Source: Bacteroidota bacterium
GTDB taxonomy: Bacteria > Bacteroidota > Ignavibacteria > Kryptoniales > JAKASW01
Length of the DNA stretch: 54,489 nucleotides
Direction of reading: 5' to 3'
Assembly (NCBI GenBank): GCA_021845665.1
Contig: JAJZVO010000027.1
Location: 1 to 54,489, forward strand
The position numbers and the translations under genes are program-made. The notes below the pieces were generated by a model. It was not told the DNA's origin. It saw only the letters and a list, made by a program, of their open reading frames with translations, and did no database searches. Below are positions 1-19,901 of the stretch, in pieces. Position 1 is the stretch's first letter. Each line of letters starts with the position of its first letter.

Positions 1-2028
1 CGATCTAACTGGATCATGAAAAAGGTTCCGAAGGATGATCTCCGTAAAGATGTACCAGAATTCATGAAATACGTCAAGACTTTTTACGATCAAATCGGCC
101 TACAGGTCGAAGGGCTTTTGTGGAAAAATGGTGGGCCGATCATCGGGATTCAACTGGACAACGAATATTCTATGCGCGGTCCTCACGCGGGCGACGGATA
201 TATACTGGCGCTCAAGAAGTTGGCTATCCAGGCGGGACTCGACGTGCCGTTGTATGTCGTCACGGGATGGGATGGTGCAGTGGTTCCCAAAGGAGCAGTA
301 CTGCCTGTCTATGGCGGTTACATGGACGCGCCGTGGGACGGATCCAGGAAGCAATTGCCGCCTAATGAAGTTTATGCATTCCGTTTTGGCAGCCGTGTCT
401 CGGGGAACATTGAAATGCCTGAGCAAAGTAAATCGGGAAGCTCGATCGATGCTCTCACAAGTAATGCCGCCACTCCTTTCCTTACCGCTGAAATGGGAGG
501 CGGCATCGAAGATACCTATCACCGCAGACCGATAATAAGACCAAACGATGTTGCAGCAATGTATCCTGTGATGCTTGGTTCGGGCGTCAACATGTACGGT
601 ACATACATGTTTCAGGGCGGCGAGAACCCGCAGGGGAAGCTTACGACTCTTCAGGAGTCGCAGGTTACGGGATACCCTAACGATTTACCGGTCAAATCGT
701 ACGATTTCCAGGCCCCGCTGGGTGAGTTCGGCCAGGAGAGGGAATCTCTCCGGAAAATTAAAATCTTCAACTATTTCATGAATGAATTCGGAAGTCAGTT
801 GGCTCCCTTGGTGGTACGCCCGCCTGAAATCAGGCCGAAGGGTCCCGCTGATTTGTCCGTTCCTCGCCTCTCCGTGCGAACCAACGGACGGGAAGGATTC
901 CTGTTCTGGAACAACTATGTACGTTATTATCCGCTTCCCGACTGGGACAGTGTCCAGGTTGCAGTCAAGCTTCCTCATGAAGAATTGCAAATCCCTGAGA
1001 GGCCCATCACAGTACCATCAGGTGATTATTTCATTTGGCCCTTCAATTTCGATATGTCCGGCGTTCAGCTGAAGTATAGCACCGCACAACTGTTCACCAG
1101 GATAAAAGCCGGTCTGGAAACGATCTACTTTTTCGTTGCGATCCCCGGAATTGCGCCGCAGTTCGCTTTCGACTCCGGTACATTCTCGTCGATAACGTTA
1201 ATGAGCGGGCGGGCCAGCAATGGTGGAGCGACGCGATTTGTAACCGGCATGGAGACGGGATTGCGCCCGGCAATCATCTTACATTCGCAATCAGGATCTG
1301 AAGTGAAATTAGTGCTCCTTTCAGAGAAGGAGGCCGAGTCCGCGTGGAGAGTGAAGATCGGCGGGAGCGTTCATCTTCTTTTCACACAGTCGGCGTTTTA
1401 CTCCGACAGGTCACATTTCTACTTACAGTCGGTAGGTAGCCCGGAGTTTAAATTTCGTCTTTATCCGGAAGTGCCCGGCATTCTACACGGGAGTTCCGCA
1501 ATCCGAACCGAAATGCAGAGCGATAGCATCAAGCTGTTTGTGTCAAAACTTCCGGCAGCCCGACTGAGATTCCAGTATACGAAACTTCAGAATGCGGGCC
1601 ATGTGCCCCCGGTGAAGCTTGGACCCTGGGTCGCCTGGCGTAAGAATCATAGAGTGGCGGAAGCTCCGCCGGACAGCGAGTACAATCTGGCCGCTAAATG
1701 GAGTGTGAGCCTGCCGCGCGAGTTTCCTCCGGATCTGAGTGAGCTGTTCCTTGACACAAGATACTATGGTGATGTGGCCCGCCTGTATTCCCACGGCAAA
1801 TTGCTCGAGGACAATTTCTACAACGGGACGACATGGAAAGTCGGCGTCAAGCGCTTCGAGAACGATTTGCGGGCCGGACCGCTGCAATTAGAGATTCTTC
1901 CACTTCGAAAAGACGCTCCGATATTTCTGGAGAAGGGATGCTGGCCGGAGTTCCCGGCGAGTGGACAAGTGGCCGAACTGGAATCACTAACATTAACTCC
2001 GGAGTACCGGCTAATTGTCGATAAGTAA
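1..2028 (+). CDS. GH35 beta-galactosidase, 5'-truncated by window edge
   Basis: Glycoside hydrolase family 35, expected to remove terminal beta-galactosyl residues. The frame is open to base 1, so the true start, signal peptide and part of the TIM barrel lie outside the window. Visible active-site blocks are GGPIIGIQLDNEY, whose Glu (codon at 163) is the likely acid/base, and TAEMGGG, whose Glu (codon at 490) is the likely nucleophile. About 500 residues of beta-rich C-terminal domains follow, as in large bacterial GH35 enzymes. It lies 101 bp upstream of a GH53 galactanase and heads a galactoside locus, so galactan-derived oligosaccharides are the likely substrate. Family assignment is firm; exact specificity is inferred. 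Confidence 0.88.
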   Translation, partial: RSNWIMKKVPKDDLRKDVPEFMKYVKTFYDQIGLQVEGLLWKNGGPIIGIQLDNEYSMRGPHAGDGYILALKKLAIQAGLDVPLYVVTGWDGAVVPKGAVLPVYGGYMDAPWDGSRKQLPPNEVYAFRFGSRVSGNIEMPEQSKSGSSIDALTSNAATPFLTAEMGGGIEDTYHRRPIIRPNDVAAMYPVMLGSGVNMYGTYMFQGGENPQGKLTTLQESQVTGYPNDLPVKSYDFQAPLGEFGQERESLRKIKIFNYFMNEFGSQLAPLVVRPPEIRPKGPADLSVPRLSVRTNGREGFLFWNNYVRYYPLPDWDSVQVAVKLPHEELQIPERPITVPSGDYFIWPFNFDMSGVQLKYSTAQLFTRIKAGLETIYFFVAIPGIAPQFAFDSGTFSSITLMSGRASNGGATRFVTGMETGLRPAIILHSQSGSEVKLVLLSEKEAESAWRVKIGGSVHLLFTQSAFYSDRSHFYLQSVGSPEFKFRLYPEVPGILHGSSAIRTEMQSDSIKLFVSKLPAARLRFQYTKLQNAGHVPPVKLGPWVAWRKNHRVAEAPPDSEYNLAAKWSVSLPREFPPDLSELFLDTRYYGDVARLYSHGKLLEDNFYNGTTWKVGVKRFENDLRAGPLQLEILPLRKDAPIFLEKGCWPEFPASGQVAELESLTLTPEYRLIVDK

Positions 2029-2129
2029 CGCGATTACCTGTGTGCTATGGCCAGGATTACACTGGCTCATGTGCAAGAGCGCCAAGCGCCAAAATGCATG
2101 TCGACGAGTTAAAACTTGTGGAGATTGAT

Positions 2130-3299
2130 ATGAAGACATATACTGCTCTTTGGAGCCGCATGTCCCGGTATGTGTTCCGGAAATCTGGATTCGCTTTTCG
2201 AGGTCGCGCAATTACTCTCGCTCTAGTCGTTCTTTGGCTGATCCCATTTTCAGGAGTTACACTCGCGCAAGGGTCGAAGTTTGTTCTCGGTGCGGACATA
2301 AGCGCGCTGGATGCGCCTTCGTTTGGTCCGAAGATCACATACATGTATGACGGCAAACCGAGCAGCGAGCTGGCTATCCTCGCGAAAAACGGCTGGAATG
2401 CTTTTCGGCTGAGGGTCTTTGTCTCGCCTGTCAGAGAAGCTCCTGACAATACCGTTGGTGCGGCGATTCCACTGGCAAAAAAGATCAAGGAGCTTGGAGC
2501 CGTCTTCCTTCTCGATATGCATTTTTCGGACACTTGGGCTGATCCCCAACATCAGGAGATACCCATCGCCTGGCGAGGACTTAATTACGACAGTCTGAAG
2601 ATTGAATGGGAAACCTACGCGTACGACACCATAAAAAGACTTAAGGACGCAGGAGCGATGCCTGATTGGGTACAGATCGGAAACGAGATAACTCGCGGCG
2701 TCGCGTGGCCAATAGCTCAGTTGAAGGAGCCGGGATCAACGATCTTTAATCCACCAAAACCGTACGACGCGGCGAAACAGTGGAGACGTTTGGCAGGTTT
2801 ACTTAAGGCGGGGATTCGGGGTGTCATGAAAGCTGCGGGGAAGACACCGCCGCTTATCGCGATCCATATCGACCAGGGAGGAAATTGGAAGATTACAAAA
2901 TGGTTCTTCGATCATCTGAACGAAGAGGGCGTCCATTACGACATAATAGCGGAGAGCTTCTATCCACCGTGGCGCCATGGTACGCTGGCTCAGTTGCGTG
3001 AAAACATGGACAGCTGTGCTGCCATATTCCACAAGCCGTTTCTTGTTGCGGAAACAGGGTATGGACCGAGCCATTTCAAGAATAACCCCGACATGCTCTG
3101 GCCGGTCACACCGGAGGGAAGACTGCAGTTTCTCGTGGCTTTGGTCAGAACGGTGAGAGAAGCTCCTAATGGATTGGGGGTAATGTATTGGGCTCCCGAG
3201 TACGATCTGTGGAACGTCTATGCGACACCCGCGCCGGCTCTGTTCACACCGGACAGTTTGAAAGCAACTGCGAATGACCGGGAAGGTTACGTTAAATGA
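2130..3299 (+). CDS. GH53 arabinogalactan endo-beta-1,4-galactanase (no T9SS tail)
   Basis: Family 53 endo-beta-1,4-galactanase that cuts internal bonds of beta-1,4-galactan. With the chosen ATG it has 389 residues. The acid/base lies in VQIGNEIT (Glu186) and the nucleophile in VAETGY (Glu308); DMHFSDTWADP is another family block. The frame is open from 2040, but the ATG at 2130 has GGAG six bases upstream and gives a basic N-terminus followed by a hydrophobic segment ending near SGVTLAQG, i.e. a signal peptide. The protein ends soon after the barrel, without a sorting domain. It is therefore predicted periplasmic, unlike the second GH53 at 12283. Confidence 0.9.
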   Translation: MKTYTALWSRMSRYVFRKSGFAFRGRAITLALVVLWLIPFSGVTLAQGSKFVLGADISALDAPSFGPKITYMYDGKPSSELAILAKNGWNAFRLRVFVSPVREAPDNTVGAAIPLAKKIKELGAVFLLDMHFSDTWADPQHQEIPIAWRGLNYDSLKIEWETYAYDTIKRLKDAGAMPDWVQIGNEITRGVAWPIAQLKEPGSTIFNPPKPYDAAKQWRRLAGLLKAGIRGVMKAAGKTPPLIAIHIDQGGNWKITKWFFDHLNEEGVHYDIIAESFYPPWRHGTLAQLRENMDSCAAIFHKPFLVAETGYGPSHFKNNPDMLWPVTPEGRLQFLVALVRTVREAPNGLGVMYWAPEYDLWNVYATPAPALFTPDSLKATANDREGYVK

Positions 3300-3410: not shown

Positions 3411-3420
3411 CTCAATTTGC

Positions 3421-3449
3421 TTGACATTGCATTCGCCGGCGATTATCTT
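3421..3449 (+). promoter_or_regulatory. Promoter-like element P1
   Basis: A perfect TTGACA (3421-3426) is separated by 17 bp from TATCTT (3444-3449), close to a housekeeping-sigma promoter. Extended, TATCTTAC also partly fits the Bacteroidota -7 motif TAnnTTTG. The downstream palindrome at 3459 would overlap the transcription start, as expected for a repressor operator. Confidence 0.5.
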
Positions 3450-3458
3450 ACGGCTGCA

Positions 3459-3472
3459 TGTTAGCGCTAACA
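3459..3472. promoter_or_regulatory. LacI-type operator, copy 1 (TGTTAGCGCTAACA)
   Basis: A perfect 14-bp palindrome with a central CpG, the usual form of LacI/GalR-family operators. The same 14 bases recur at 4255 with unrelated flanks, so the sequence itself appears conserved. It lies 32 bp after the TTGACA of P1, near the predicted start of transcription. No LacI-family gene is present in the window. Confidence 0.7.
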
Positions 3473-4214
3473 GAGATTAGCGATGACATAAGGATCGTCT
3501 ACTTTTAGGGAGGAGCATTTGACGGTTGTTATACGCGGTCCGGTAGTGCAAGTGCCGGCACAATCTCGGCCTACTGTCTCTGTTGCGAACGGTTGCTGCG
3601 CAGCGGGAAATAGACCGCATGCGTGTAATGAGAATGCAACCGCTTCGACCCTCTGCCCATTTAAACCTTTCCAATTCAGTAAAAAAGTAATCCCATTTCA
3701 AACGGTAGGTCTAAGAAATAACTCTGTCCGAATCGACCGGCCCTTTTTATCGTCAGCAGGACCGGTGTTGGAGTCAAGTTGATCGTTTTTTCGATGATGG
3801 GAATCAGTTTCGTGTGCCACAAGGAGTTACACGCCGCGATTGTCCGATTGAAGCAGCGATAGAGTTTGTAGGTTTGGTTTTATTTGACGAGTAGCATGAT
3901 TTGATGTTGCGGCTGGGACTGAACCATTGATGATGGATCTTAGGTATGTGACCGAGATGGCGAAGCTGTGCCGGGGTGTTTGCGGTGAGAGGCGATCTGC
4001 CAACTTATCGGCCACATTGTTTGAAGGACCTCTATCGGGTGCCGGTACGGGACCGTGGCGATTCAATTGGAGCATGTAATAACCCGGCCGCCGGTTTCAG
4101 GAGCCTTGATCGATTGCACCTGCAGACGCCGGCGCGAATGATTAGAACGGCAGCTGTTCGCTTGCCTGTTTAGTTGAGGCTCTTTGTTCTCACGTGCAAA
4201 CGCGCAGAAGCCGC

Positions 4215-4245
4215 TTGACATTAACGTACCGGGGTGCTGTCTTTG
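4215..4245 (+). promoter_or_regulatory. Promoter-like element P2
   Basis: TTGACA (4215-4220) is followed after 17 bp by TGTCTTTG (4238-4245), which differs from the Bacteroidota -7 consensus TAnnTTTG at one position. It lies about 410 bp upstream of the TonB receptor and repeats the P1 layout, with the same palindrome just downstream. Confidence 0.5.
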
Positions 4246-4254
4246 GCGGCAGCC

Positions 4255-4268
4255 TGTTAGCGCTAACA
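4255..4268. promoter_or_regulatory. LacI-type operator, copy 2 (TGTTAGCGCTAACA)
   Basis: Second identical copy of the 14-bp palindrome, 34 bp after the TTGACA of P2. The two copies are 796 bp apart, compatible with repression by looping between two dimers of a tetrameric LacI-type regulator, though that is inference. Galactose or a galacto-oligosaccharide would be the obvious inducer. Confidence 0.7.
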
Positions 4269-4653: not shown

Positions 4654-7600
4654 ATGTTGAAAACAAATAGTGTTCTCTGTGCCATCTTCTTCGTTTTGCT
4701 GACGTCGGGATTATCCTGGAGCGCCACGGGGAGGGTCGAAGGTAGAGCGACAGACGCTGGCACTGGAGACCCGCTTCCCGGCGTCACCGTTCAACTCGTT
4801 GGGACCTCCATGGGCGCTGCGACAGGCCTGGATGGACATTACATTATTTCCAACGTTCCTGCCGGCTCATACACCCTGAAGGCGTCCTACATCGGTTACA
4901 GATCGTTGTCGGAGAAGATCGAAGTCAAGGACAACGGACATCTTACGAAAGACCTGAAGCTGGAAGCTGTAGGCGTGAGCACCAGGGAAGTTGTGGTAAC
5001 CGCGCAGGCGAGCGGACAGAACGCGGCCATAAACCAACAGCTTACATCCAACAACGAAGTAAATGTGGTATCATCCGCAAGGATACAGGCCCTTCCAGAT
5101 GCGAACGCAGCTGAATCAGTCGGGCGTCTGCCGGGTATTTCGTTGATCAGGAACGGTGGGGAGGCCACGCAGATCGTGATACGCGGGCTTCAGCCGCAGT
5201 ACAATCAAATCACCATCGACGGCGTGCAGATGCCTGCTAATTTTGGCGGTACTATCACTGCGAGCGGCGCTTATTCCACCCCTTCCAACACGCCCGGTGG
5301 TCGGGCAGTTGACGTGAGCATGATCTCATCGAATTCACTTCAGGGCATCGAAGTGTACAAGACGGTCACTCCAGATATGGATGCCGCGGTTCTCGGTGGT
5401 ACGGTAAATTTCAATCTCAGGGAAGCGCAGGCTACACCCACCGGTGCCCCCAGGGTCTCCATTCTTGCTCAGGGGGCCTACAACAATCTCATGAGCTCCT
5501 ACAACGATTATAAGTTCGTCGCGAGCGTTGAGAAACGTTTCTTCAATAACCGCTTCGGAGTGTTTGTCCAGGGCATTGCACAACGACAAACTCTGACGTC
5601 CGACCAGCTTGGCGGATCCTATTACCAGCCGAATAAACAAGACGTGCCGGACTCGATAGTGCTCGGGAGCCTGAATCTCTCGTTTGCCCCTTCAGTGGAA
5701 CAAAGATATGACGGTACATTGACACTCGACTACAGGTTGCCGAACGGGAAGATCGATTTAGTGAATTTGGTCAGCCACGGTAACCAAACTACCGATACAC
5801 ACAGTCAGACTTACGACCTTGCTAACTACGGCAACGACATACTTTTCGGCACACAATTCTCCTCTAATTCCATCAATCTGGTAACGGATATCCTCCAATA
5901 CAAGCAGATGCTTGGTTCCATAAATGTGGACGTAAAGCTTTCCAACTCGTATTCTGACAATCTTACTCCAAATGCCTGGAACGTCGCGTTTCAGCAGCTA
6001 TCGGCCGGCACTAGCAACATCCCTGATAATGAGAATCCCATGCAGATTGCGAGTGCATCCCAGAAGCTTATAGACCTGAACAATATGTATTGGGCGGGCA
6101 ATTCCACCTGGCGGAGCTATAACAAACAAAACGACACTCAGGGATCCATCGACCTCGAAAGGCATTTCAATCTATCGGGCGAAATTTCTGTCGCTTTGAA
6201 AGCGGGAGCGATGTACAGGTATACTACCCGTTACTACAACTTCCAAGATGGATATGGCAGCCTGTACGGCGGCTACGCATCGGGACGTCGGAATCAATTA
6301 GTTCGGGCGCTTCCGTGGCTGGCGCAGCCTCCTTACAACATCGACACAAACGCTACCGCTTCTACAAGCTTTCCGATCTTTGGGTTCTACAATCCCAACA
6401 TGAATTATGGCCAGTTTCTTAACGGTAACTATAGCATGTTTTCCGGTGTGGGCACGGGTCCTCTTAGTACAATCATAGCTGAATTGAAAGTGCTCGGCGC
6501 ACAGACGGCGACTCCGGAAACCGTTCCCGATTATATCCCGGATGTATACGGCAGTCTGGCGAGCGATTATTATGGTAATGAATTCAGGAGCGCCGAATAT
6601 CTAATGGCAACAATCAACCTGGGGCCGCAGGTTACTGTTGTCGGTGGTGCGCGGTACCAGGGTCTCAAGACTTCGTATACCGCGCCACAATTCATCGGTA
6701 ATGCTGACGCCACCAATCCTTATCCGCGTACCCTCCCTCACACATGGGTTACCAAAGATGAATACCATGGATATCTCCTTCCCGACATCAATGTGAAATA
6801 CGATCCGTTCGTCTGGTTGAGTATCCGGGGCTCGTACACCAGTACGCTCGCGTATCCGAACTACTACCAAATCACGCCGAGGATGGATGTTTCCAGCAAC
6901 AGTGGACATTATGTCGTCTGGAACAACTATGCTTTGAGTCCTGCTTTCTCCCATAACTACGATCTCCAGGTCGCGGCTTACGACAATACTATAGGTTTGC
7001 TGGCTGTCGATCCGTTCCTGAAGAGGATCGATGACCTTATGTTCAGTCAGCAGACTTACATCTCCGATCCTTCGCTCTATCCTGGCGTGCCCGCCAATAC
7101 CAAGACGTTCTCTCTAACGACTTACATCAACAATCCGTACCCGGTCAATCTCTGGGGCGTTGAGGCGGAGTGGCAGACCCATTTCTGGTATCTGCCCGGA
7201 CCTTTCAGCGGCCTGGTGTTGAATGTCAACTTCACGCATATATTCTCAAGCGCCAAGTATCCCTACAGCGTCACCGAACATTCGCCCGTCTATCCATTCC
7301 CTGTCATTCATGTCGATACGACCTACACGGACAGACTGATACAACAGCCCAACGATATTGCCAACCTTTCAATTGGGTATGACTACGGCCAGTTCTCGAT
7401 ACTGGCTTCGATGATATACCAGTCGGAAGTATACAATCAAACGGATTTCTATAACTCGCTTCGTGTGGACAAGACGAAATACTTACGCTGGGACATTTCG
7501 GTCAAACAGGGATTGCCATGGACCGACGCCCAAGTTTATCTAGATCTCTACAATCTCAACAGTGCTAACGATGTTTATGTGGTAAGGGGGTCGGGATTTC

Positions 7601-7662
7601 CGCAGTCGGAATCCGACTATGGCCTTACCGCGGACTTAGGCATTCGCTGGGTACTGGAATGA
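4654..7662 (+). CDS. TonB-dependent receptor, carbohydrate-uptake type
   Basis: Outer-membrane receptor of 1002 residues, predicted to import galactan oligosaccharides. After a signal peptide there is a carboxypeptidase-regulatory-like domain (about residues 24-104; block DGHYIISNVPAGSYTLKASY). The plug follows, with ALPDANAAESVGRLPGIS and VIRGLQPQYNQITIDG, which resembles the TIGR01782-type (Xanthomonas/Caulobacter) carbohydrate receptors more than classic SusC. The remainder is a beta barrel ending GIRWVLE. ATG 4654 was preferred over 4636 because GGAGG at 4638-4642 lies upstream of it and the N-terminus then reads as a clean signal peptide. No SusD partner follows. Substrate is inferred from the GH35/GH53/GH2 neighbours. 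Confidence 0.92.
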   Translation: MLKTNSVLCAIFFVLLTSGLSWSATGRVEGRATDAGTGDPLPGVTVQLVGTSMGAATGLDGHYIISNVPAGSYTLKASYIGYRSLSEKIEVKDNGHLTKDLKLEAVGVSTREVVVTAQASGQNAAINQQLTSNNEVNVVSSARIQALPDANAAESVGRLPGISLIRNGGEATQIVIRGLQPQYNQITIDGVQMPANFGGTITASGAYSTPSNTPGGRAVDVSMISSNSLQGIEVYKTVTPDMDAAVLGGTVNFNLREAQATPTGAPRVSILAQGAYNNLMSSYNDYKFVASVEKRFFNNRFGVFVQGIAQRQTLTSDQLGGSYYQPNKQDVPDSIVLGSLNLSFAPSVEQRYDGTLTLDYRLPNGKIDLVNLVSHGNQTTDTHSQTYDLANYGNDILFGTQFSSNSINLVTDILQYKQMLGSINVDVKLSNSYSDNLTPNAWNVAFQQLSAGTSNIPDNENPMQIASASQKLIDLNNMYWAGNSTWRSYNKQNDTQGSIDLERHFNLSGEISVALKAGAMYRYTTRYYNFQDGYGSLYGGYASGRRNQLVRALPWLAQPPYNIDTNATASTSFPIFGFYNPNMNYGQFLNGNYSMFSGVGTGPLSTIIAELKVLGAQTATPETVPDYIPDVYGSLASDYYGNEFRSAEYLMATINLGPQVTVVGGARYQGLKTSYTAPQFIGNADATNPYPRTLPHTWVTKDEYHGYLLPDINVKYDPFVWLSIRGSYTSTLAYPNYYQITPRMDVSSNSGHYVVWNNYALSPAFSHNYDLQVAAYDNTIGLLAVDPFLKRIDDLMFSQQTYISDPSLYPGVPANTKTFSLTTYINNPYPVNLWGVEAEWQTHFWYLPGPFSGLVLNVNFTHIFSSAKYPYSVTEHSPVYPFPVIHVDTTYTDRLIQQPNDIANLSIGYDYGQFSILASMIYQSEVYNQTDFYNSLRVDKTKYLRWDISVKQGLPWTDAQVYLDLYNLNSANDVYVVRGSGFPQSESDYGLTADLGIRWVLE

Positions 7663-7834
7663 TCAAATGAAGGAAAACTCAGAGAGGAGGAAAGATCCCT
7701 ATGAGATCGGGTTTGATATAGGTCCTGCTCGCCGGCTGCCCTGGACTCAGAGTATGGCGCCGGCTTTCGTTTCGTCTCACAACATCGGAAGGTTTCTTCT
7801 CAAATTAAAACAATCAAAGAAAGGATGCTTGATC

Positions 7835-9583
7835 ATGAAATCAGCTATCATGTCGCTGCTCCTGGTCGCTGTCGCGTCACTTGTAGCGGCGCCATCGGCA
7901 TCGTTTGCCGCGCAAAGTGCTGATACTGTTGTCGTATCGGCATTACCTCCCGGGAATATCAACAACGTCATCAACGCTGATACAACCTCGGCAGGTTTTG
8001 TTAAGCCCAACACGGTATTCTTACTTAAGCCGACAGGCGGACTGGACACCGTCTACTACATGACGGCCCCTGTCAGCGCAAAGGGAAACGTAACCATCGT
8101 GGGTTATATCAATCCCACAACCGGACATCCTCCCGTCGTGGCTCCCTCGATTGCACAGGACAACAGCTCCATCGGCTATTTCTTCAATCCACAGGGAAAC
8201 GACACGTTGATGTTGAAGGGGATATACTTCCTGGGTACGCGTACCGATAGCGTTTCGTTTACCGGACGATTCGCCGAGCCGGTCGGTGACAGCGATGTTT
8301 ATATTTTCGACCACTGCATTTTTGAAAACATTTCTGGTGCCGGAACGCCGAATATCGTCGACACGTACAATCATGACTACGAAAGTTTCTTCATCACTAA
8401 CTGCGAGTTCAGGAATAACCAGGACGACAATCCGCAGAATCCCGGATTCGCGTGGGTTGATCCCGGAACATACCCGTGCGACACCGCGAAATTTGTCAAC
8501 AACACCTTCTTCCTCACCGGCGGATACGTCCTCGGTTCTTCAGGCTTCGGTTGCAAGTACTTGGATTTCGAACACAACACCATTTTCCTCTCCGGTCAGG
8601 GAGGAGTATTCGATATGGGACAGATGACCAACGCGACGATAAAGAACAACATATTTTACGGCGTCTCTGCGGCGGCCTATCCTGTAGCGTGGAATCCAAC
8701 CGCCGGTGGATGGGGATCGGGTTTGATTCTCTTGGACTCATTGACGACTCTGAATTCGTCTCCCTATAACCTGACCGAGGCCGACAGGCACATTACCATC
8801 ACAAACAACGCGTACTTCTGGCCGAGTCAGATCACGGACAATTGGAATAATCTGAATTCTGCCAAGATAGATACGCCATATGTTCCGTTGCGTCCGCCTG
8901 ATTTCATAAGTGCATACCCGGCCAGCATGCTGACCAACAAGACAATCTGGCCATACGTCGACGTGGCAAACAATGACAGCGTGGATCCGGGCTTCAACTC
9001 TGCTCTCGTACAGCTGGCGGCAGGGAATATGGCAGCTTTCGTCGACACCGTTTGGGCTCACGGCGGATCTGCCAACGGTTTCCGCCCATACGTGTATCCG
9101 CTTTCCGATCCTCCTTCATTGACAGCATCGTGGCCGAATGTGCCTCAAGACTGGGCATCCAAGCAGGGATACCCGGTTGCGGAGAATCTCGCCTATACTG
9201 CCAACCTGGTCGGTTCCGACGGCTTTTCTTTGGGGGATCTCAACTGGTTCCCGGCGCAGCTCAAGCTTTGGCAGGAAGGCAAGGTAAATGCGGTGAAAAC
9301 GGTCGGGCCGCAAGTTCCCGCTAAGTTCTCGCTCAGCCAAAACTATCCGAACCCGTTCAACCCGACTACGGATATAAAGGTTAGCCTGGCACACGCAGGC
9401 GTGATGAACCTGACAGTCTACAACGTCCTCGGCCAGATCGTCCAGGTAGTCGACCAGGGATATAAACCCGCCGGCGAATATATTTACAACGTCAACATGG
9501 ATAGATTTGCCAGCGGCGTCTATTTCTATACCCTCCGCCAGGGAACGAACGAAATTACAAAAAAGATGCTTCTCCTTAAGTAA
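7835..9583 (+). CDS. T9SS-secreted right-handed beta-helix protein
   Basis: A 582-residue secreted protein with a clear signal peptide (ends near SASFAA), a long body resembling parallel beta-helix turns (patterns such as FDHCIFENISG, FVNNTFFLTGG, ATIKNNIFYG), and a C-terminal T9SS type A sorting domain that starts FSLSQNYPNPFNPTT and ends KKMLLLK. It should be exported by type IX secretion and displayed on or released from the surface. ATG 7835, with AAAGGA nine bases upstream, is preferred over the longer frame from 7667. No catalytic residues were recognised; a pectin/galactan lyase-like or glycan-binding role is possible. Its position right after the receptor, where SusD usually sits, is notable. 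Confidence 0.8.
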   Translation: MKSAIMSLLLVAVASLVAAPSASFAAQSADTVVVSALPPGNINNVINADTTSAGFVKPNTVFLLKPTGGLDTVYYMTAPVSAKGNVTIVGYINPTTGHPPVVAPSIAQDNSSIGYFFNPQGNDTLMLKGIYFLGTRTDSVSFTGRFAEPVGDSDVYIFDHCIFENISGAGTPNIVDTYNHDYESFFITNCEFRNNQDDNPQNPGFAWVDPGTYPCDTAKFVNNTFFLTGGYVLGSSGFGCKYLDFEHNTIFLSGQGGVFDMGQMTNATIKNNIFYGVSAAAYPVAWNPTAGGWGSGLILLDSLTTLNSSPYNLTEADRHITITNNAYFWPSQITDNWNNLNSAKIDTPYVPLRPPDFISAYPASMLTNKTIWPYVDVANNDSVDPGFNSALVQLAAGNMAAFVDTVWAHGGSANGFRPYVYPLSDPPSLTASWPNVPQDWASKQGYPVAENLAYTANLVGSDGFSLGDLNWFPAQLKLWQEGKVNAVKTVGPQVPAKFSLSQNYPNPFNPTTDIKVSLAHAGVMNLTVYNVLGQIVQVVDQGYKPAGEYIYNVNMDRFASGVYFYTLRQGTNEITKKMLLLK

Positions 9584-9590
9584 CACCTCT

Positions 9591-9632
9591 GGATGCGCCT
9601 GCGGCCCTCAACGGCTGCACGCGCATCCTTTT
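9591..9632 (+). terminator. Rho-independent terminator after the beta-helix gene
   Basis: GGATGCGC pairs with GCGCATCC, continued by an inner TGCGGCC/GGCTGCA stem with one G-T pair and a five-base loop (TCAAC). TTTT follows at 9629. It begins eight bases after the stop codon, so the receptor and beta-helix genes may form one transcript with partial read-through into GH2. Confidence 0.75.
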
Positions 9633-9748
9633 CAAAGCGTGATAGCTTTTTTCCTCGCGTTTCAATACATAAAGGAATTCGTCGCACCTTTCGTTTTGAA
9701 GGACATTTTTTCTCACATAGGCATCAGGCGGGCGGAAGTGAAACATTT

Positions 9749-12247
9749 ATGAAAAAGCAGCTGCCAATCTTGACTCTAATACTGGTCCAAATCCTGGCGG
9801 TGAACGGAATCTGCGGTGTCTTTCCGGTCCGCCAACACCTGTTGATGGACTACGACTGGAAATTTATTCATGCAGATGTCAAGGGTGCCGAGAAGACGAG
9901 TTTTGATGACAGCGAGTGGAAAACGGTCGACATTCCATACGACTGGAGCATCGAAGGAATGTTCAACAAGAACGCGGCCACAGGGGGAGCCGGCGGCTAT
10001 CTTCCGACGGGCATCGGCTGGTATCGTAATCACTTTATCTTACCGACATTTCATAAAGGCGACGATTGCTGGATAGAGTTTGAAGGAGTCTATATGAACA
10101 GCGACGTCTGGATTAACGGCCATTTCCTCGGTAATCATCCGTACGGCTACACGAGTTTCAATTATGATCTGACGCCGTATGTCAAGCGGGGGGAAAACGT
10201 GATTGCGGTACGGGTCGACAATTCGCTTCAACCTAACAGCCGGTGGTACTCGGGTTCCGGAATCTACCGCAACGTGTGGCTTAATATTACCGGCCCGGTT
10301 CACATTGCGCAGTGGGGGACATACATTACGACCCCCGATGTCGATTCTTCCTCCGCTACTGTTCAAGTCCGCACTACCGTCGACAATCGATTGACATCAA
10401 CTGAGAATATCGAGCTGCATTCGTCAATCGTGAGCAGTTCAGGCGAAGTGGTTGCATCCGTCGAGACTCCGGTCTCATTAGTTCAGTCAGGACGAACGAA
10501 AGTCGAACAGACTTTGAAAGTATCTTCTCCTTCACTCTGGTCGATAGAGACTCCGTTGATGTACAGGATGAGATCGATATTGCTCGATGGGACAAAGGTC
10601 GTGGACAGTCTCATGACTCCTTTTGGAATCCGAAGTATACGTTACGATGTCAACAAAGGATTTTTCCTGAATGGGAAGCATGTGAAGATGCATGGGGTTT
10701 GCCTCCACCCCGATGCTGGCTGTCTCGGTGTAGCGGTTCCGGTCCAGGCATGGGTGAGGCGTTTGAAACTCCTAAAGGCAATGGGCTGCAATGCGATCCG
10801 TACGGCGCATAATCCCCCTACACCTGAGTTCCTCAGGCTTTGCGACAAGATGGGATTCCTGGTGATGGACGAAGCTTTCGATGAATGGTCAATCGCGAAG
10901 AGCCAGGTTAAATATGGCTATCACCTCTATTTCAAAGAGAACTGGAAATCCGATCTGCTTTCCATGATCCGGCGCGACCGGAATCATCCGAGCATCGTCA
11001 TATGGAGTGCAGGCAACGAAGTCCTCGAACAGGGCTCGGATTCGGGTACTGCCGTACTGAAGGAGCTAATCGAAACTTTTCACAAGGAAGACCCGACCAG
11101 GCCGGTTACCGTTGCCAGCGACCATATCGCCGATCCCACATATCCCGCTAAGCTTTCTTTTCTTAATACAGAGGAGATAGTCGGATACAATTACGTGGAC
11201 CGCTGGGGAAAGCGCAGGGAACTCTATTACAGCATAGACAGGCACAACCATCCGAATTGGAAAATGATCGGCACGGAATGCACGTCGATCCCGAGCATCC
11301 GAGGATATTATGCGATGCCGTGGGACACAACGTCGAACCCGTTCATGAACTACCTGAACTACACGACAAACATGATCGAGGCCGAGCAGCTATGGGAATT
11401 CGAAGCGATCCATGATTATGTCATTGGCGATTTCATGTGGACCGGTATCGACTACCTTGGCGAGGCGGAGTGGCCTGCCAAGAGCTCCAGCTTCGGCGTG
11501 ATCGATCTCTGCGGCTTCCCAAAGGACAGCTATTATTTTTATCAGAGCCAGTGGTCCGATAAGCCGGTGCTTCATCTGCTTCCTCATTGGAACTGGAAAG
11601 GACATGACGGTCAAGTCATTCCGGTAATCGCATATACAAACTGCGACAGCGTGCAGCTTTACGTTAATGGCAAACCGTTCGGAATGGAATCCTATGTCTT
11701 TCCGCAGCAAGGCCATGCCGGTGCTTGGGACAAATACGCACATCCGTATGTATACCCAACAACTTCGGATCTTCACCTCTCATGGAGCGTACCTTACGAG
11801 CCCGGTACACTCGAGGCCGTCGGCAAATGGCATGGGAAAACAATCACTGACATCGTACATACTACATCCGTACCTTATGCGATCAGGCTGTCGGCTGACA
11901 GGACCAAAGTCAAGGCCGATGCCGAAGACATTGCGGATGTTAAAGTGGAAATTGTGGACAAACATGGATGGGTTGTACCAACGGCGGACAATCTCATCGA
12001 TTTCAAAGTTGAAGGCGAAGGGACGTTGGACGGAACCGATAATGGAAATCCTGTCGACACCACCCCGATGAAGAGCCATGAGCGAAAGGCATTCAATGGC
12101 CTCGCGCTTGCAGTGATCAAATCGATTCGTAAGCCTGGCCCGATTAGACTAATCGTCACTTCCAAAGGCTTGAAGAGTGCGGAGATTGAGATCGTATCGG
12201 AGACGCCTGCCCACGGCCCGGCAACGGTCGAGAGTATGGCCCGATAG
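9749..12247 (+). CDS. GH2 beta-galactosidase (first copy)
   Basis: Family 2 beta-galactosidase, 832 residues from ATG 9749; the frame is open upstream, but this start gives a good signal peptide (KKQLPILTLILVQILAVNG) after a purine-rich GGCGGAAG. The order is sugar-binding jelly roll (WKFIH...GIGWYRNHF), Ig-like domain, TIM barrel, then C-terminal DUF4982-like and Ig-like domains. The acid/base is in WSAGNEV (Glu424) and the nucleophile in IGTECTS (Glu510). It probably releases galactose from oligosaccharides in the periplasm. It is paralogous in layout to the gene at 13757, and a GH53 gene separates the two copies. Confidence 0.88.
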   Translation: MKKQLPILTLILVQILAVNGICGVFPVRQHLLMDYDWKFIHADVKGAEKTSFDDSEWKTVDIPYDWSIEGMFNKNAATGGAGGYLPTGIGWYRNHFILPTFHKGDDCWIEFEGVYMNSDVWINGHFLGNHPYGYTSFNYDLTPYVKRGENVIAVRVDNSLQPNSRWYSGSGIYRNVWLNITGPVHIAQWGTYITTPDVDSSSATVQVRTTVDNRLTSTENIELHSSIVSSSGEVVASVETPVSLVQSGRTKVEQTLKVSSPSLWSIETPLMYRMRSILLDGTKVVDSLMTPFGIRSIRYDVNKGFFLNGKHVKMHGVCLHPDAGCLGVAVPVQAWVRRLKLLKAMGCNAIRTAHNPPTPEFLRLCDKMGFLVMDEAFDEWSIAKSQVKYGYHLYFKENWKSDLLSMIRRDRNHPSIVIWSAGNEVLEQGSDSGTAVLKELIETFHKEDPTRPVTVASDHIADPTYPAKLSFLNTEEIVGYNYVDRWGKRRELYYSIDRHNHPNWKMIGTECTSIPSIRGYYAMPWDTTSNPFMNYLNYTTNMIEAEQLWEFEAIHDYVIGDFMWTGIDYLGEAEWPAKSSSFGVIDLCGFPKDSYYFYQSQWSDKPVLHLLPHWNWKGHDGQVIPVIAYTNCDSVQLYVNGKPFGMESYVFPQQGHAGAWDKYAHPYVYPTTSDLHLSWSVPYEPGTLEAVGKWHGKTITDIVHTTSVPYAIRLSADRTKVKADAEDIADVKVEIVDKHGWVVPTADNLIDFKVEGEGTLDGTDNGNPVDTTPMKSHERKAFNGLALAVIKSIRKPGPIRLIVTSKGLKSAEIEIVSETPAHGPATVESMAR

Positions 12248-12282: not shown

Positions 12283-13644
12283 ATGCGAAAGACAATTCAA
12301 TTGGAACAGGCGGAGTCGGCTGGCTCCGCCAAAATACTGAACGCGTTTTCAACGGCGAAGCGGATTGCCGGCGGGCTCTTCTTACTTCTTCTGACGATTG
12401 TAGTGCTTGCTCCCGATGCCGCTGCCCAGTTTGCTAATGGTGCCGACGTGAGCTGGCTGCCGCAAATGGAGGCGGCGGGGTATGTCTTCAAGAACCAGTC
12501 CGGAGTTGAGATGAATTGCCTGGATATTCTGAAAGAAGAAGGCATAAATGCGATCCGGATCAGGGCCTGGGTCAATCCGAAGGGAGGATACTGCGACACC
12601 AAGTATGTCACCTCATTGGCCCACCAAGCGGACAGCATGGGGTTCGATATTCTCATAGACTTTCATTGCAGCGACACATGGGCCGATCCGTCTCACCAAT
12701 ATACGCCGGCCGCATGGGCCAGCGATTCGCTCCCACAGCTCCTTACTAATCTCTATGACTATGTCTACGGTGTAATGGACACGCTGAAAATGGCGGGCGT
12801 TGTTCCGAAGTGGGTACAGATTGGAAATGAGACCAACAATGGGATGATGTGGCCGTTGGGGATGGCTACCACGCATATGGCCAACTTCGCTCAAATGATC
12901 GACACCGGCTATGCTGCCGTCAAAGCGATCGACAGCACAACACAGGTGATCGTTCACTTGTCGAATTCATACGACGATACGATGTACAGGTGGATGTTCG
13001 ACGGCCTTGAGAAATATGGTGCAAGGTGGGACATCATTGGAATGTCCGCATACCCGTACTGGGCGAACCTCCCCTGGCAGACCGACGACAGCCTGACACT
13101 CGTGACCATGAAGGATATGATCGCGAGATACCATAAGAAAGTGATGGTGGTCGAAGCGGGATACGCATATAGTCAGCCTGTAACAGCGAATCACTATCTC
13201 ATGGATCTTATCGCGAAGACTAAATCTGTAGGAGGGCTGGGCGTGTTCTACTGGGAACCGGAGTGTTATAACTGGCAGGGATACCAAATGGGTGCCTGGA
13301 ATCCCGCCAATGAAGAACCCACTGTCGCTCTCGACGCCTTCCTGGGGAAGTACGCAACTGCTGTCGTAGGACCGACACGTCCCGAAGGATTCAACCTGCA
13401 TGTCTATCCTAACCCGTTCAACCCAACCACGACCATTCAATACAATCTTCCGGTTCGGTCGAACGTCTCGATCAATATCTACAATGTCCTGGGACAGGAA
13501 GTCAGACAACTCGTCAGCGGATACCAGAATCAGGGCACACACACTTTGAGCTGGTCAGCGAACGGACTGGCAAGCGGTGTTTACTTCTGCCGGCTCAGCG
13601 CATCGGACTATCTCGCGATGCGGAAACTTGTGTTATTGAAGTAG
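12283..13644 (+). CDS. GH53 endo-beta-1,4-galactanase with T9SS sorting tail
   Basis: Second family 53 endo-galactanase, 453 residues. The N-terminus has a membrane-type signal (GGLFLLLLTIVVLAPDAAAQ), then the barrel with VQIGNETNNG (acid/base Glu183) and VVEAGYAYS (nucleophile Glu291). The last 80 or so residues form a T9SS type A domain starting HVYPNPFNPTTTIQY and ending MRKLVLLK. It should therefore act outside the cell on polymeric galactan, complementing the tail-less copy at 2130. ATG 12283 is 35 bp after the GH2 stop, consistent with co-transcription. Confidence 0.92.
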   Translation: MRKTIQLEQAESAGSAKILNAFSTAKRIAGGLFLLLLTIVVLAPDAAAQFANGADVSWLPQMEAAGYVFKNQSGVEMNCLDILKEEGINAIRIRAWVNPKGGYCDTKYVTSLAHQADSMGFDILIDFHCSDTWADPSHQYTPAAWASDSLPQLLTNLYDYVYGVMDTLKMAGVVPKWVQIGNETNNGMMWPLGMATTHMANFAQMIDTGYAAVKAIDSTTQVIVHLSNSYDDTMYRWMFDGLEKYGARWDIIGMSAYPYWANLPWQTDDSLTLVTMKDMIARYHKKVMVVEAGYAYSQPVTANHYLMDLIAKTKSVGGLGVFYWEPECYNWQGYQMGAWNPANEEPTVALDAFLGKYATAVVGPTRPEGFNLHVYPNPFNPTTTIQYNLPVRSNVSINIYNVLGQEVRQLVSGYQNQGTHTLSWSANGLASGVYFCRLSASDYLAMRKLVLLK

Positions 13645-13702: not shown

Positions 13703-13756
13703 ACCTTCTATATCTTTCGAATGTACTATCACAATCTTAAACCTGGGAGCTATGTA

Positions 13757-16243
13757 ATGTTAAGGCGGATTTGTACAATGGTGGCCGTTCTCTTACTCGG
13801 CTCGCTTCCTGCCTTCGGGGCACAGAACGGTGCTTCGGCAGCCAAGGATCTGAATTCACCAATCCCCCGGCAGAAGCTTCTGATGGACTACGGCTGGAAA
13901 TTCCACTTCGGAAATTCTGCCGACCCGAAGCTTGATTTCGGATACGGGTCCGGTGAGATTTACGCGAAAGAGGGAATCGGCCCTGAAGCCACGATGCCGA
14001 AGTTTAACGACAGCTCCTGGCAGTCGATCAACCTTCCCGATGACTGGGCGGTTTACCTTCCGTTTGTGCATGTCAAGGATTTTGCGATCATGGGGCACGG
14101 ATACAAACCGATCGGCGGAGAATTCCCGGCTACTTCTATAGGGTGGTACAGGAAGGAATTTACCGTCCCGGCGAAAGACTCCACGAAGAGAATATCAATA
14201 CAGTTCGACGGGGTTTATAGAGATTGCATTGTCTGGCTGAACGGTAACTTCGTAGGGAAAAACATGAGCGGATATGCTCCGTTCTCGTTCGACGTCACGA
14301 ACTTCGTCAATTACGGCGGACAAAATGTCCTGGTCGTGAGGGTCGATGCTGAGAACTACGAAGGCTGGTTTTACGAGGGGGCGGGCATATACAGGCATGT
14401 TTGGCTCATAGAAACTCCACCGCTCCACATCCCGATATACGGCACATATGTCAGGACGGCTTCCATCGAGGGAGGCCGGGCGACTTTAGCAGTTCAAACG
14501 AAGGTCAGCAACAGGGAGGACGAAGCAGCACGATTCGATGTGGAATCAATTATCATAGACAATCATGGGAACATAGTAGCGAGAGCCTCGACCGCAGGAA
14601 CCAGAATGCTTCCGTATGAGAAGAGAAAATTCGAACAGAGCATGACTGTTGACCGCCCGGCATTGTGGTCTCCTGACCATCCAAGTCTTTACAAGCTCGT
14701 TTCTGTCATAAAATCTGGCGGCAAAGTAATAGACCGCGTGAATACAACCTTCGGCATCCGTACGCTCAGGTGGACCAGCAACGACGGTTTCTTCCTGAAC
14801 GGGAAGCGAGTGGAGATAAAGGGCACCTGCAATCACCAGGACTTTGCAGGCGTGGGGACCGCGCTCCCGGACGGGCTGCAATATTTCCGTGTTAAGAAGC
14901 TGAAGGAGATGGGTTGCAATGCATGGCGAACGAGCCACAACCCTCCGACACCCGCACTTCTCGATGCGTGCGATAAGCTGGGGATGCTCGTCATGGACGA
15001 AAACAGGCTTCTGAATAGCTCGCCGGAATACGTGTCGCAGTTTAAGAGGATGATACGCCGGGACAGAAACCACCCGTCAGTGGTCATCTGGTCGATCGGC
15101 AACGAGGAATGGGGAGTACAGGACACGCCTGTCGGTGTAAGAATAGCGAAGACGCTGATACGTATTCAAAAGGAGCTCGACCCTTCGAGGACGTGCACTT
15201 TCGCGGCGAACGACGGCGATGCGTTCAATGACGCCGTCAACAGCGTCATCCCAGTTAGAGGCTTCAATTATCACGTTTATGATATTCAGAAGTATCACGA
15301 GCAGCATCCCGGCCAGCCGCTTATCGGGACGGAGACAGCAAGCACGGTTTCCACACGCGGAGAATACGCGAGCGATACCGCGAAGGGGTATGTCAGTGAT
15401 TACGACGTCAACGCACCACCTTGGGGCGAAACGGCGGAGCAATGGTGGAAGTTCTACGATGAGCACAGGTACCTTGCCGGCGGGTTTGTCTGGACAGGAT
15501 TCGATTACCGCGGTGAGCCGACGCCTTACGAATGGCCCGACATAAATTCCAACTTCGGCATAATGGACGTATGCGGATTTCCCAAGAACAATTTCTATTA
15601 TTACCAGTCATGGTGGAGTCATAAGAACGTGTTGCATATTTTCCCGCACTGGAACTGGCCCGGTAAGATCGGCCAGCCCATCGATGTCTGGTGCTTCAGT
15701 AATTGCGACAGCGTCGAATTGCTGTTGAACGGCAAGAGCCTCGGTACGAAAGTGATGGAGCGTGATTCTCATTTAGAGTGGACGGTGAATTATGAACCAG
15801 GTACGCTCGAAGCACGGGGATGGAGGGACGGGAAGACCATCGTCGATAAAGAGGAGACAACGGGGCGTCCGGTCGCCATCCGCCTAAAGCCAGACCGCGA
15901 CACCATTCGCGCCAATGGCGAAGACGTATCCGTTGTCGAAGTTACGGTTGTCGATTCTCTTGGAAGGGAGGTACCGACTGCCGATGATCTGATTCACTTC
16001 CAGGCCGAAGGACAGGGCTCTATCATAGGCGTCGGAAACGGCGATCCGAGCAGCCACGAGCCAGACAAATATCCTGACGGCGGTTATCAACGAAAACTTT
16101 TCAACGGCAAATGCGAAGTCATAATCCTGTCGGATCGCGAGCCGGGTGAAATAAGACTCCAGGCGACGGGCTACGGCCTGAGGGATGCAACGTTGAGAAT
16201 CGGAACAAGGCAATCCAAGCTTGTCCCTCTAGTGGGCGAGTAG
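13757..16243 (+). CDS. GH2 beta-galactosidase (second copy)
   Basis: Family 2 glycosidase, 828 residues from ATG 13757. This start has GGGAG eight bases upstream and begins a compact signal peptide (LRRICTMVAVLLLGSLPAFG); the frame itself is open from 13721. The domain order matches the copy at 9749: jelly roll, Ig, TIM barrel, DUF4982-like, Ig-like. The acid/base is in WSIGNEEWG (Glu450) and the nucleophile in IGTETAS (Glu526). Compared with the first copy it has an insert near residues 40-75 and a shorter catalytic loop, so the two may prefer different linkages or chain lengths. Likely periplasmic. Confidence 0.87.
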   Translation: MLRRICTMVAVLLLGSLPAFGAQNGASAAKDLNSPIPRQKLLMDYGWKFHFGNSADPKLDFGYGSGEIYAKEGIGPEATMPKFNDSSWQSINLPDDWAVYLPFVHVKDFAIMGHGYKPIGGEFPATSIGWYRKEFTVPAKDSTKRISIQFDGVYRDCIVWLNGNFVGKNMSGYAPFSFDVTNFVNYGGQNVLVVRVDAENYEGWFYEGAGIYRHVWLIETPPLHIPIYGTYVRTASIEGGRATLAVQTKVSNREDEAARFDVESIIIDNHGNIVARASTAGTRMLPYEKRKFEQSMTVDRPALWSPDHPSLYKLVSVIKSGGKVIDRVNTTFGIRTLRWTSNDGFFLNGKRVEIKGTCNHQDFAGVGTALPDGLQYFRVKKLKEMGCNAWRTSHNPPTPALLDACDKLGMLVMDENRLLNSSPEYVSQFKRMIRRDRNHPSVVIWSIGNEEWGVQDTPVGVRIAKTLIRIQKELDPSRTCTFAANDGDAFNDAVNSVIPVRGFNYHVYDIQKYHEQHPGQPLIGTETASTVSTRGEYASDTAKGYVSDYDVNAPPWGETAEQWWKFYDEHRYLAGGFVWTGFDYRGEPTPYEWPDINSNFGIMDVCGFPKNNFYYYQSWWSHKNVLHIFPHWNWPGKIGQPIDVWCFSNCDSVELLLNGKSLGTKVMERDSHLEWTVNYEPGTLEARGWRDGKTIVDKEETTGRPVAIRLKPDRDTIRANGEDVSVVEVTVVDSLGREVPTADDLIHFQAEGQGSIIGVGNGDPSSHEPDKYPDGGYQRKLFNGKCEVIILSDREPGEIRLQATGYGLRDATLRIGTRQSKLVPLVGE

Positions 16244-16422: not shown

Positions 16423-17598
16423 TTGGAATCAAGTTCAGATGTAGTCGGCTTAATAAGAGAAAAATACTTAGGAATATACGACCGCAACGACAGTATGGTG
16501 ATAGTCAGGTCGCCGGGCCGCATCAACCTGATTGGGGAACATACCGACTACAACGAAGGGTTTGTGCTCCCTTCGGCGATAGACCGAGCGATTTACCTTG
16601 CGGTCGGGCCGTGTCGCGGCTTCGACGTTTCCCTGACTTCCCTGGATCTTAACGATCAACTGCGCTTTGACGTCCGGGAAGCAGCGAAATCTCAAAAGGC
16701 ATGGGCAAATTACCTGATCGGGATAGTTCACGAACTCAATAGAGCAGGGCACCATATCGGCGGCTTCAACTGTGTCTTTTCGGGAGACATCCCGATCGGT
16801 GCAGGGATGTCGTCGTCGGCAGGAATCGAAGCGGGACTGGCATTTGCTCTCAACAGTATGTTCGACCTCGGTATTGGAAGAAGGGATCTTGCGAGAATCG
16901 CGCAGCGTTCGGAAAATGAGTTCGTCGGTGTCCGTTGCGGAATCATGGACCAGTTTGCCAACTTGCTCAGTAAAGGCGAGTCTGCGCTGCACCTCGACTG
17001 CCGAAGCCTTCAATATGAGTATATCCCTTTTATAAGGAGGGACCTGGAGTTTGTCCTCTGTGACACGGGAGTGAAACACAGCCTGGCTTTCTCGGAGTAC
17101 AATCTCAGAAGGGAACAATGTGAAACAGGCGCAGGCATAATCAGAAAATATTTCTCCGGTGTCCGGAGCCTTCGCGATGTCGAACCGGAAATGCTGAGGG
17201 AACATAAAGATGAATTGGGCGACACGATATACGGACGATGCAAATATGTAGTGGAAGAAAATGCGCGCGTGAATTTAGCCGGCAAATATCTGAGACAGAA
17301 CGATTACGACAAATTCGGGGAACTCCTCTACGCTTCCCACGAAGGCTTGAGAGATGAATACCAGGTCAGCTGCAGGGAACTGGATGTACTGGTCGATGCG
17401 GCAACGAACATCGATGGAGTCCTCGGCGCAAGGATGATGGGTGGTGGTTTCGGTGGATGCACCCTGAACCTTGTGGACCGCGAATCGGCCGAAGAGTTTA
17501 AGTCGAAAATAAGCGAGTCCTACCGGAGAGAGACCGGCAAGGTGCCGCAGCTTTATGAATGCAGCCTTATGCCGGGAACCGATTTGGTTCCCGATTGA
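16423..17598 (+). CDS. galK: Galactokinase
   Basis: Phosphorylates galactose to galactose-1-phosphate with ATP, the entry to the Leloir pathway; cytoplasmic GHMP kinase of 391 residues. The galactokinase signature PGRINLIGEHTDYNEGFVLP is at residues 31-50, the ATP-binding loop is GAGMSSSAGIEAG, the catalytic Asp is in GIMDQFA, and the third GHMP motif is MMGGGFGGC. The start is a TTG at 16423 with GGAG nine bases upstream; the first in-frame ATG falls inside the conserved N-terminus. It follows the GH2 gene by 180 bp and precedes galT by 67 bp. Confidence 0.97.
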   Translation: MESSSDVVGLIREKYLGIYDRNDSMVIVRSPGRINLIGEHTDYNEGFVLPSAIDRAIYLAVGPCRGFDVSLTSLDLNDQLRFDVREAAKSQKAWANYLIGIVHELNRAGHHIGGFNCVFSGDIPIGAGMSSSAGIEAGLAFALNSMFDLGIGRRDLARIAQRSENEFVGVRCGIMDQFANLLSKGESALHLDCRSLQYEYIPFIRRDLEFVLCDTGVKHSLAFSEYNLRREQCETGAGIIRKYFSGVRSLRDVEPEMLREHKDELGDTIYGRCKYVVEENARVNLAGKYLRQNDYDKFGELLYASHEGLRDEYQVSCRELDVLVDAATNIDGVLGARMMGGGFGGCTLNLVDRESAEEFKSKISESYRRETGKVPQLYECSLMPGTDLVPD

Positions 17599-17665: not shown

Positions 17666-18706
<1,041 letters not shown>

Positions 18707-18845: not shown

Positions 18846-19901
18846 ATGATCGTTAAGAATGTATTCGGGGAACTTCCCGACGGACGCGAAGCACATCTCT
18901 ATTCGCTCAGAAATGGGAACGGGATGCTTGTCGACATAACGGATTTTGGCGCCAGTGTCGTCTCGATATTCGTCCCCGACAGGGACGGGAAGTTTGACGA
19001 TGTGACTTTCGGCTACGACTCTGTCGACGGCTACCTGCACGGCTCCAGCTTCCTCGGAGCGACAATCGGAAGATTTGCGAATCGAATCGATAAAGGCCGA
19101 TTCAAACTTGACGGAGTGGTGTATCGTTTGCCTGTGAATGACGGGGGAAATACTCTTCACGGAGGGCCGTCAGGTTTCCACAAAAGGCTCTGGTCCGCCG
19201 AGCCTCTAAACGCAAATGAAGGAGAGTCTTTGAAGCTGTCTTACGTGAGCGAGGACGGCGAGGAAGGCTTTCCCGGTACCTTAACGGCAAATGTGATCTT
19301 CACTTTGACAATTGACAATGCCCTTGAGATTCGGTTATCGGCCAGCTCGGACAAGCTTACCGTAGTTAATATGACTTTCCACGGCTACTTCAACCTGACC
19401 GGCAACCCTGAGAGATCGATACTCGGTGAAGAGCTGATGATCGACTCGGATCATTATACTCCCTTAGACGACACCCAAATCCCGACAGGTGTCATCGAGG
19501 AGGTTGCAGGTACTCCGATGGATTTCAGGATACCCACTCAGATCGGACTACGCATCGACGAGGCGCACGAACAGCTGAGGATCTGCAGGGGCTACGACAT
19601 GAATTGGGTCCTGAACAGCCAGAACAACCACGTCCGTAAGGTGGCTGAGCTTTACGATCGGCCAAGCGGAAGGTCGATGAGCGTTTTCACCAACGAGCCG
19701 GGGATGCAGTTTTATACCGGCAACTTCCTCACAGGCAAGGAAAAAGGGAAAGGCGGCGTCGCTTACGGGTATAGAAGTGCCGTCGCTCTCGAGACGCAGC
19801 ATTATCCCGACTCCCCGAACAAACCAGATTTTCCATCTACATCCCTCCTCCCGGGGCATACCTACCATTCCACTACGATATACAAGTTCTCCGTACGCTG
19901 A
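18846..19901 (+). CDS. galM: Aldose 1-epimerase (galactose mutarotase)
   Basis: Interconverts beta- and alpha-D-galactose so that galactosidase products can be used by galactokinase; 351 residues. Family blocks are NTLHGGPSGFHKRLW, TFHGYFNLTG with the active-site His, and ALETQHYPDSPN with the catalytic Glu near the C-terminus. No signal peptide is evident, so it is placed in the cytoplasm with GalK and GalT. It ends the galactoside locus. Confidence 0.95.
   Translation: MIVKNVFGELPDGREAHLYSLRNGNGMLVDITDFGASVVSIFVPDRDGKFDDVTFGYDSVDGYLHGSSFLGATIGRFANRIDKGRFKLDGVVYRLPVNDGGNTLHGGPSGFHKRLWSAEPLNANEGESLKLSYVSEDGEEGFPGTLTANVIFTLTIDNALEIRLSASSDKLTVVNMTFHGYFNLTGNPERSILGEELMIDSDHYTPLDDTQIPTGVIEEVAGTPMDFRIPTQIGLRIDEAHEQLRICRGYDMNWVLNSQNNHVRKVAELYDRPSGRSMSVFTNEPGMQFYTGNFLTGKEKGKGGVAYGYRSAVALETQHYPDSPNKPDFPSTSLLPGHTYHSTTIYKFSVR

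Follow-up and report, generated by a model that had tools for sequence, protein, structure and literature searches.

Most binding motifs of the LacI family are even palindromes with a central CG, and the family members gathered in the RegPrecise collection control local sugar regulons, including the galactose and galactoside groups GalR, GanR and BgaR (PMC4052901). From the phylum Bacteroidota, that collection covered one group, Bacteroides (PMC4052901). In Xanthomonas, the xyl-box of the LacI-type repressor XylR is TGGTAGCGCTAACA (PMC7748154), and the CUT loci of that genus, of which sux is an example, bring together a LacI-type regulator, a TonB receptor, a hydrolase and an inner-membrane transporter (PMC1790865).

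Here, we analyzed a stretch of 54,489 nucleotides (contig JAJZVO010000027.1 of assembly GCA_021845665.1; hereafter, the window, and G000 for its genome), from an organism whose genus was placed, by named records, among the metagenome assemblies of Candidatus Kryptoniota/Bacteroidota. To our knowledge, LacI regulons have not been described in Candidatus Kryptoniota. Two identical palindromes in the window probably serve as operators of a LacI-family repressor of the galactose pathway, placed at the promoters of a galactan cluster, and we give this reading a probability of about 0.86.

With the repressors of the RegPrecise collection, the system shares an even palindrome with a central CG, a promoter-proximal site, a local carbohydrate regulon and a regulator that often lies beside its own site (PMC4052901). 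It differs from those groups in that the regulators come from Ca. Kryptoniota and relatives and score far below the cut-offs of the GalR and RbsR models. The Xanthomonas xyl-box is letter-identical to a third operator, found ahead of a GH35 gene, and is one base away from the two operators in the window (PMC7748154). Unlike XylR, which acts on xylose genes, the regulator considered here would have GH35, GH53, GH2 and gal genes as its targets, and its own neighbors are gal and ara genes. Because nearly the same operator goes with xylose genes in Xanthomonas and with galactose genes in this cluster, the sugar cannot be read from the operator sequence alone. As in the CUT loci, a LacI-family regulator goes together with a TonB receptor and glycosidases, and the receptor is of the Xanthomonas/Caulobacter type; in contrast to those loci, the phylum and the substrate are others, and the regulator was not found in the assembly of the window genome. 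Escherichia coli GntR has a recognition helix with MTVSR and a site near TGTTACCGGTAACA. We take its likeness to the present system, in the recognition helix residues and the outer half-site TGTTA-CG, to be a lead only; the sugar is a different one, and the NCBIfam GntR model stays far below its cut-off.

Predicted promoter-operator modules

The perfect 14-bp palindrome TGTTAGCGCTAACA, which is even and carries a central CG, lies at 3459 to 3472 (operator 1) and again at 4255 to 4268 (operator 2), 796 bp further on. A scan of the whole 4.64-Mb assembly returned these two exact copies only, and within the window no other site with up to three mismatches was found. Each copy follows a predicted promoter on the + strand. 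Promoter 1 (3421 to 3449) is composed of TTGACA at 3421 to 3426, a 17-bp spacer and TATCTT at 3444 to 3449, with a predicted start at about 3456, and promoter 2 (4215 to 4243) is composed of TTGACA at 4215 to 4220, a 17-bp spacer and TGTCTT at 4238 to 4243, with a predicted start at about 4250. The distance from TTGACA to the operator is 32 bp for the first copy and 34 bp for the second. Assuming a start some 7 bp past the -10 element, the operators span approximately +3 to +18, and the center of operator 1 falls near +10. Both lie in a 1.35-kb intergenic gap, which extends from 3300 to the ATG of a TonB-receptor gene at 4654. The first-pass annotation of this DNA had reported the two palindromes, the promoter layout 32 to 34 bp ahead of each and the gap before the receptor, and we confirmed all of these.

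That annotation had also held a chance duplication to be unlikely, and our controls agree with it, as a repeated perfect 14-bp palindrome arose in 1 of 150 order-2 Markov simulations of the window and the genome has four matches to the composite TTGAC-N24-40-KGKTANCGNTAMCR, compared with none to its reversed control. When up to two mismatches are allowed, the assembly contains 10 matches to TGTTAGCGCTAACA and 20 to the reversed control. This lack of enrichment contradicts the idea, raised in the same annotation as the finding that would speak against it, that the 14-mer is a common dispersed repeat.

Further modules are located elsewhere in the genome. On contig C56, ahead of the GH35 gene, TTGACA-N17-TATTTT is followed by TGGTAGCGCTAACA, which differs from operators 1 and 2 by one base, and this module is identical to module 1 at 43 of 52 positions. 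A degenerate fourth module with the same promoter layout precedes the gene for a BNR-repeat protein on contig C3; apart from it, the operator look-alikes with two mismatches elsewhere in the genome mostly stand without promoter context. The window sites belong to a set that counts at least three promoter-operator modules and probably four, and an arrangement of two sites, such as looping, is therefore neither needed nor shown.

The modules are conserved within the genus. G012 has all three modules of the galactan cluster, with 14 of 14 bases kept in each of the two window operators, and the region from 3415 to 3490 is 92% identical to its counterpart there, compared with approximately 71% for the flanking noncoding DNA of the gap. 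Ahead of its TonB gene, G012 likewise carries two identical sites, 766 bp apart. The orthologous TonB receptors of G005 and G010 are preceded by a single exact 14-mer each, and those of G006 and G008 by two, 114 and 105 bp apart, respectively, the promoter layout being the same throughout. Measured over 16 modules, with start sites as predicted, the center of the operator lies 44 to 52 bp from the first base of the -35 TTG, and in all modules listed the operator is downstream of the -10 element.

Gene content of the cluster

All genes of the cluster are on the + strand. The window opens within a GH35 beta-galactosidase-type gene (1 to 2028; PF01301), the missing 5' part of which is found, together with the third promoter-operator module, at C56:1-832, as the end of that contig overlaps the start of the window. 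The overlap, of about 120 bp, is between window positions 1 to 131 and C56:1-123 (C56 being read backwards). Since the two contigs overlap inside one GH35 gene, the galactan cluster continues on C56, where alpha-galactosidase-like (Melibiase_2), GH5-like and GH92 genes are encountered.

Within the window, the GH35 gene is followed by a GH53 endo-beta-1,4-galactanase-type gene (2040 to 3299; PF07745) and, beyond the gap, by the TonB-dependent receptor gene (4654 to 7662). The receptor matches the Xanthomonas/Caulobacter-type model TIGR01782 with 307.7 bits, slightly below the cut-off of 310, and its ATG at 4654 is accompanied by a ribosome site, TGGAGGT, that is conserved in six genomes. Downstream lie genes for a beta-helix protein with a secretion-sorting C terminus (7667 to 9583), a GH2 glycosidase (9593 to 12247), a GH53 endo-galactanase-type protein with a sorting tail (12283 to 13644) and another GH2 glycosidase (13721 to 16243). 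These are followed by galK, encoding galactokinase (16423 to 17598; PF10509 and PF00288), galT, encoding galactose-1-phosphate uridylyltransferase (17666 to 18706; PF01087 and PF02744), and galM, encoding aldose 1-epimerase (18846 to 19901; PF01263). Judged by its enzyme families, the cluster would be devoted to the use of galactan or arabinogalactan. An Rfam search of the first 20.5 kb of the window matched no structured RNA. Downstream of the cluster, genes for PAS-rich histidine kinases and response regulators are densely packed between 22404 and 30376.

A LacI-family regulator group that accompanies the palindrome

In both G005 and G010, a LacI-family gene and the orthologous TonB receptor gene are arranged divergently around the exact 14-mer, and the LacI-family protein has the recognition helix VSAMTVSRAL. 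Orthologs of this regulator are also present in G001, G006, G008 and G012, with 72 to 77% identity among orthologs, and in the first three of these genomes the gene coincides with matches to PF00356, the LacI helix-turn-helix (HTH). The protein matches the CcpA, RbsR and PurR structures over its full length, combining the LacI HTH with a periplasmic-binding-protein-like domain, and reaches the cut-off of no NCBIfam LacI-type equivalog model, GalR, RbsR and CytR included, the best score being 223 bits against a cut-off of 382 (RbsR), with GalR at 169 against 557.

The exact 14-mer is located upstream of this same orthologous gene in four genomes of the genus (G005, G006, G008 and G010). It lies between the regulator gene and the divergent galK-galT pair in G006, and beside GH2 and galK in G008. 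G001 has a copy with two mismatches upstream of its regulator gene, whose neighbors are a divergent galK-galT pair, a sodium:solute symporter gene and galM, while the G012 gene adjoins a symporter gene, galM and araBDA and has no good operator site upstream of it. In G012, G006 and G008, the regulator gene lies apart from the TonB locus. In a more distant family, G068 carries the regulator, the operator, an epimerase-like gene, galK (galactokinase) and the TonB receptor in a row.

The presence of the site largely follows that of the regulator. Within the genus, five of the six other genomes with the ortholog have exact sites, G001 having only the site with two mismatches, and exact TGTTAGCGCTAACA is absent from all six genomes without the regulator. 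Among 391 genomes of the class, 31 have the regulator, its presence being set at 447 bits or more, where the scores show a visible break. TGTTARCGYTAACA was found in 19 of these and in 11 of the 360 others (Fisher p 6e-17), and outside the genus the counts are 14 of 25 and 10 of 353, respectively (Fisher p 6e-13); these values overstate independence, since the genomes are related. The other 12 of the 31 regulator-bearing genomes lack an exact site. A search for a LacI-family gene co-occurring with the 14-mer, as the first-pass annotation had recommended, thus led to a defined group. As to its proposal of a LacI/GalR-family repressor acting at two sites, the LacI-family part is upheld by the operator upstream of the orthologous gene in four genomes and by the class-wide co-occurrence, whereas the two-site part is not needed for a set of at least three modules.

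No ortholog of the regulator was found in the assembly of the window genome, which is 95.6% complete and consists of 135 contigs. The assembly has five LacI-family genes, all of other groups, one of them a fragment and none on the window contig. The remnant of a LacI gene between operators 1 and 2 was considered as well, and tblastn of three LacI orthologs against the gap found nothing. When the G012 segment around the regulator was compared with this assembly, nothing closer than stretches of 63 to 74% identity was obtained, short near-identical repeats excepted, and an mscL-like gene of the syntenic G012 segment is also missing. The absence of the regulator would fit a segment that was left unassembled, without proving a gap, and we favor this possibility over true absence because of the perfect conservation of the sites. 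Separately, the LacI gene at C75:55430 is truncated and continues into an unrelated glycosidase-like frame, apparently through a deletion or an assembly fusion.

A leader reading frame behind the operator

Each of the six TonB loci (the window, G012, G005, G006, G008 and G010) has a Shine-Dalgarno sequence followed by TTG, 41 to 72 nt past the start of an operator. In the window, GGGAGG and a TTG at 3519 open a leader frame of 87 codons (3519 to 3782, + strand) behind operator 1, and across the six loci the frame remains open for 67 to 105 codons, a length rarely reached by such positions in four of these leaders and less rarely in the remaining two. A long leader frame was absent from five other TonB leaders that we examined. 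The arrangement suggests that the ancestral promoter of the TonB gene may be the one marked by operator 1, with operator 2 marking an extra one. The leader peptides are dissimilar except between sister genomes, and there the substitutions are spread about evenly over the codon positions (16/26/18), so that the peptide is under no visible selection. Tentatively, the act of translating the leader, with the peptide itself free to change, could form a second layer of control over LacI-type repression, a proposal that we consider possible and less likely than not to hold. Such translation may keep Rho off the 0.3- to 1.1-kb leader or may couple the leader to the translation rate.

Alternative explanations

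One alternative would add to the explanation given above rather than replace it. A LacI-type tetramer might loop the 796 bp between operators 1 and 2 and thereby tighten repression of the TonB operon, as the paired identical sites before the TonB genes of G000, G012, G006 and G008 could indicate. Yet the spacing between paired sites is not kept, G005 and G010 have a single site, and in the window both sites come with a promoter of their own and can therefore act alone; we regard such a loop as unlikely. Helical phasing of the 796- and 766-bp spacings was also considered and is uninformative at such a distance.

The acting protein might instead be a LacI-family paralog encoded at C75:21969, in a fucose locus, the galactose regulator having been lost. 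This paralog is encoded in the assembly and shares the MTVSR recognition helix, and its G006 ortholog lies upstream of a TonB gene with a near-identical TGTTACCGCTAACA. Nevertheless, no matching operator was found near the C75 gene, the orthologs of the paralog in G003 and G011 occur in genomes without an exact site, and it is the group of the galactose regulator that the 14-mer follows, which makes this substitution improbable. G006 also has a sister motif, TGTTAGCGGTAACA, at C2:214414, C2:226503 and C6:11946, before other TonB and fucosidase-like genes, with one of these sites near a paralogous LacI gene of a fucose locus. The two putative regulons are paralogous, and their operators differ by a single base.

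That the regulator activates, or has a dual role like that of Cra, seems very improbable; LacI-family proteins can work both ways (PMC4052901) and we found nothing else in its favor, whereas in all of the modules listed the operator follows the -10 element, a position suited to repression. That the sites have no part in regulation and are chance palindromes or a dispersed repeat can be dismissed almost entirely, for even if the motif with up to two mismatches is no commoner than its control, exact copies are confined to two places in the window, the promoter context is seen four times compared with none in the control, and the sites are conserved in relatives and co-occur with one regulator group.

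Proposed model of regulation

Classic repression by the galactose regulator is the reading that we favor, because of the location of the operators, the target genes and the neighbors of the regulator. From the sequences, we infer binding, repression, the inducer, the extents of the operons and the presence of the regulator in this organism, and we propose the following model. A repressor dimer would occupy a predicted primary-sigma promoter from about +3 to +18 and there block initiation or early elongation. With no substrate at hand, the GH35-GH53 unit would be shut through the C56 operator, and the unit of TonB receptor, GH2, GH53 and galK-galT-galM would be shut through the operators at 3459 and 4255. 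An inducer derived from galactan or arabinogalactan, which may be galactose, arabinose or a short galacto-oligosaccharide, would then release the repressor.

We found no published use of the exact 14-mer in the open literature that we searched. For galactan use in Candidatus Kryptoniota, the analysis predicts an operator with its promoter layout, a regulator group and a set of target genes, by which the putative regulon becomes recognizable in uncultured genomes.
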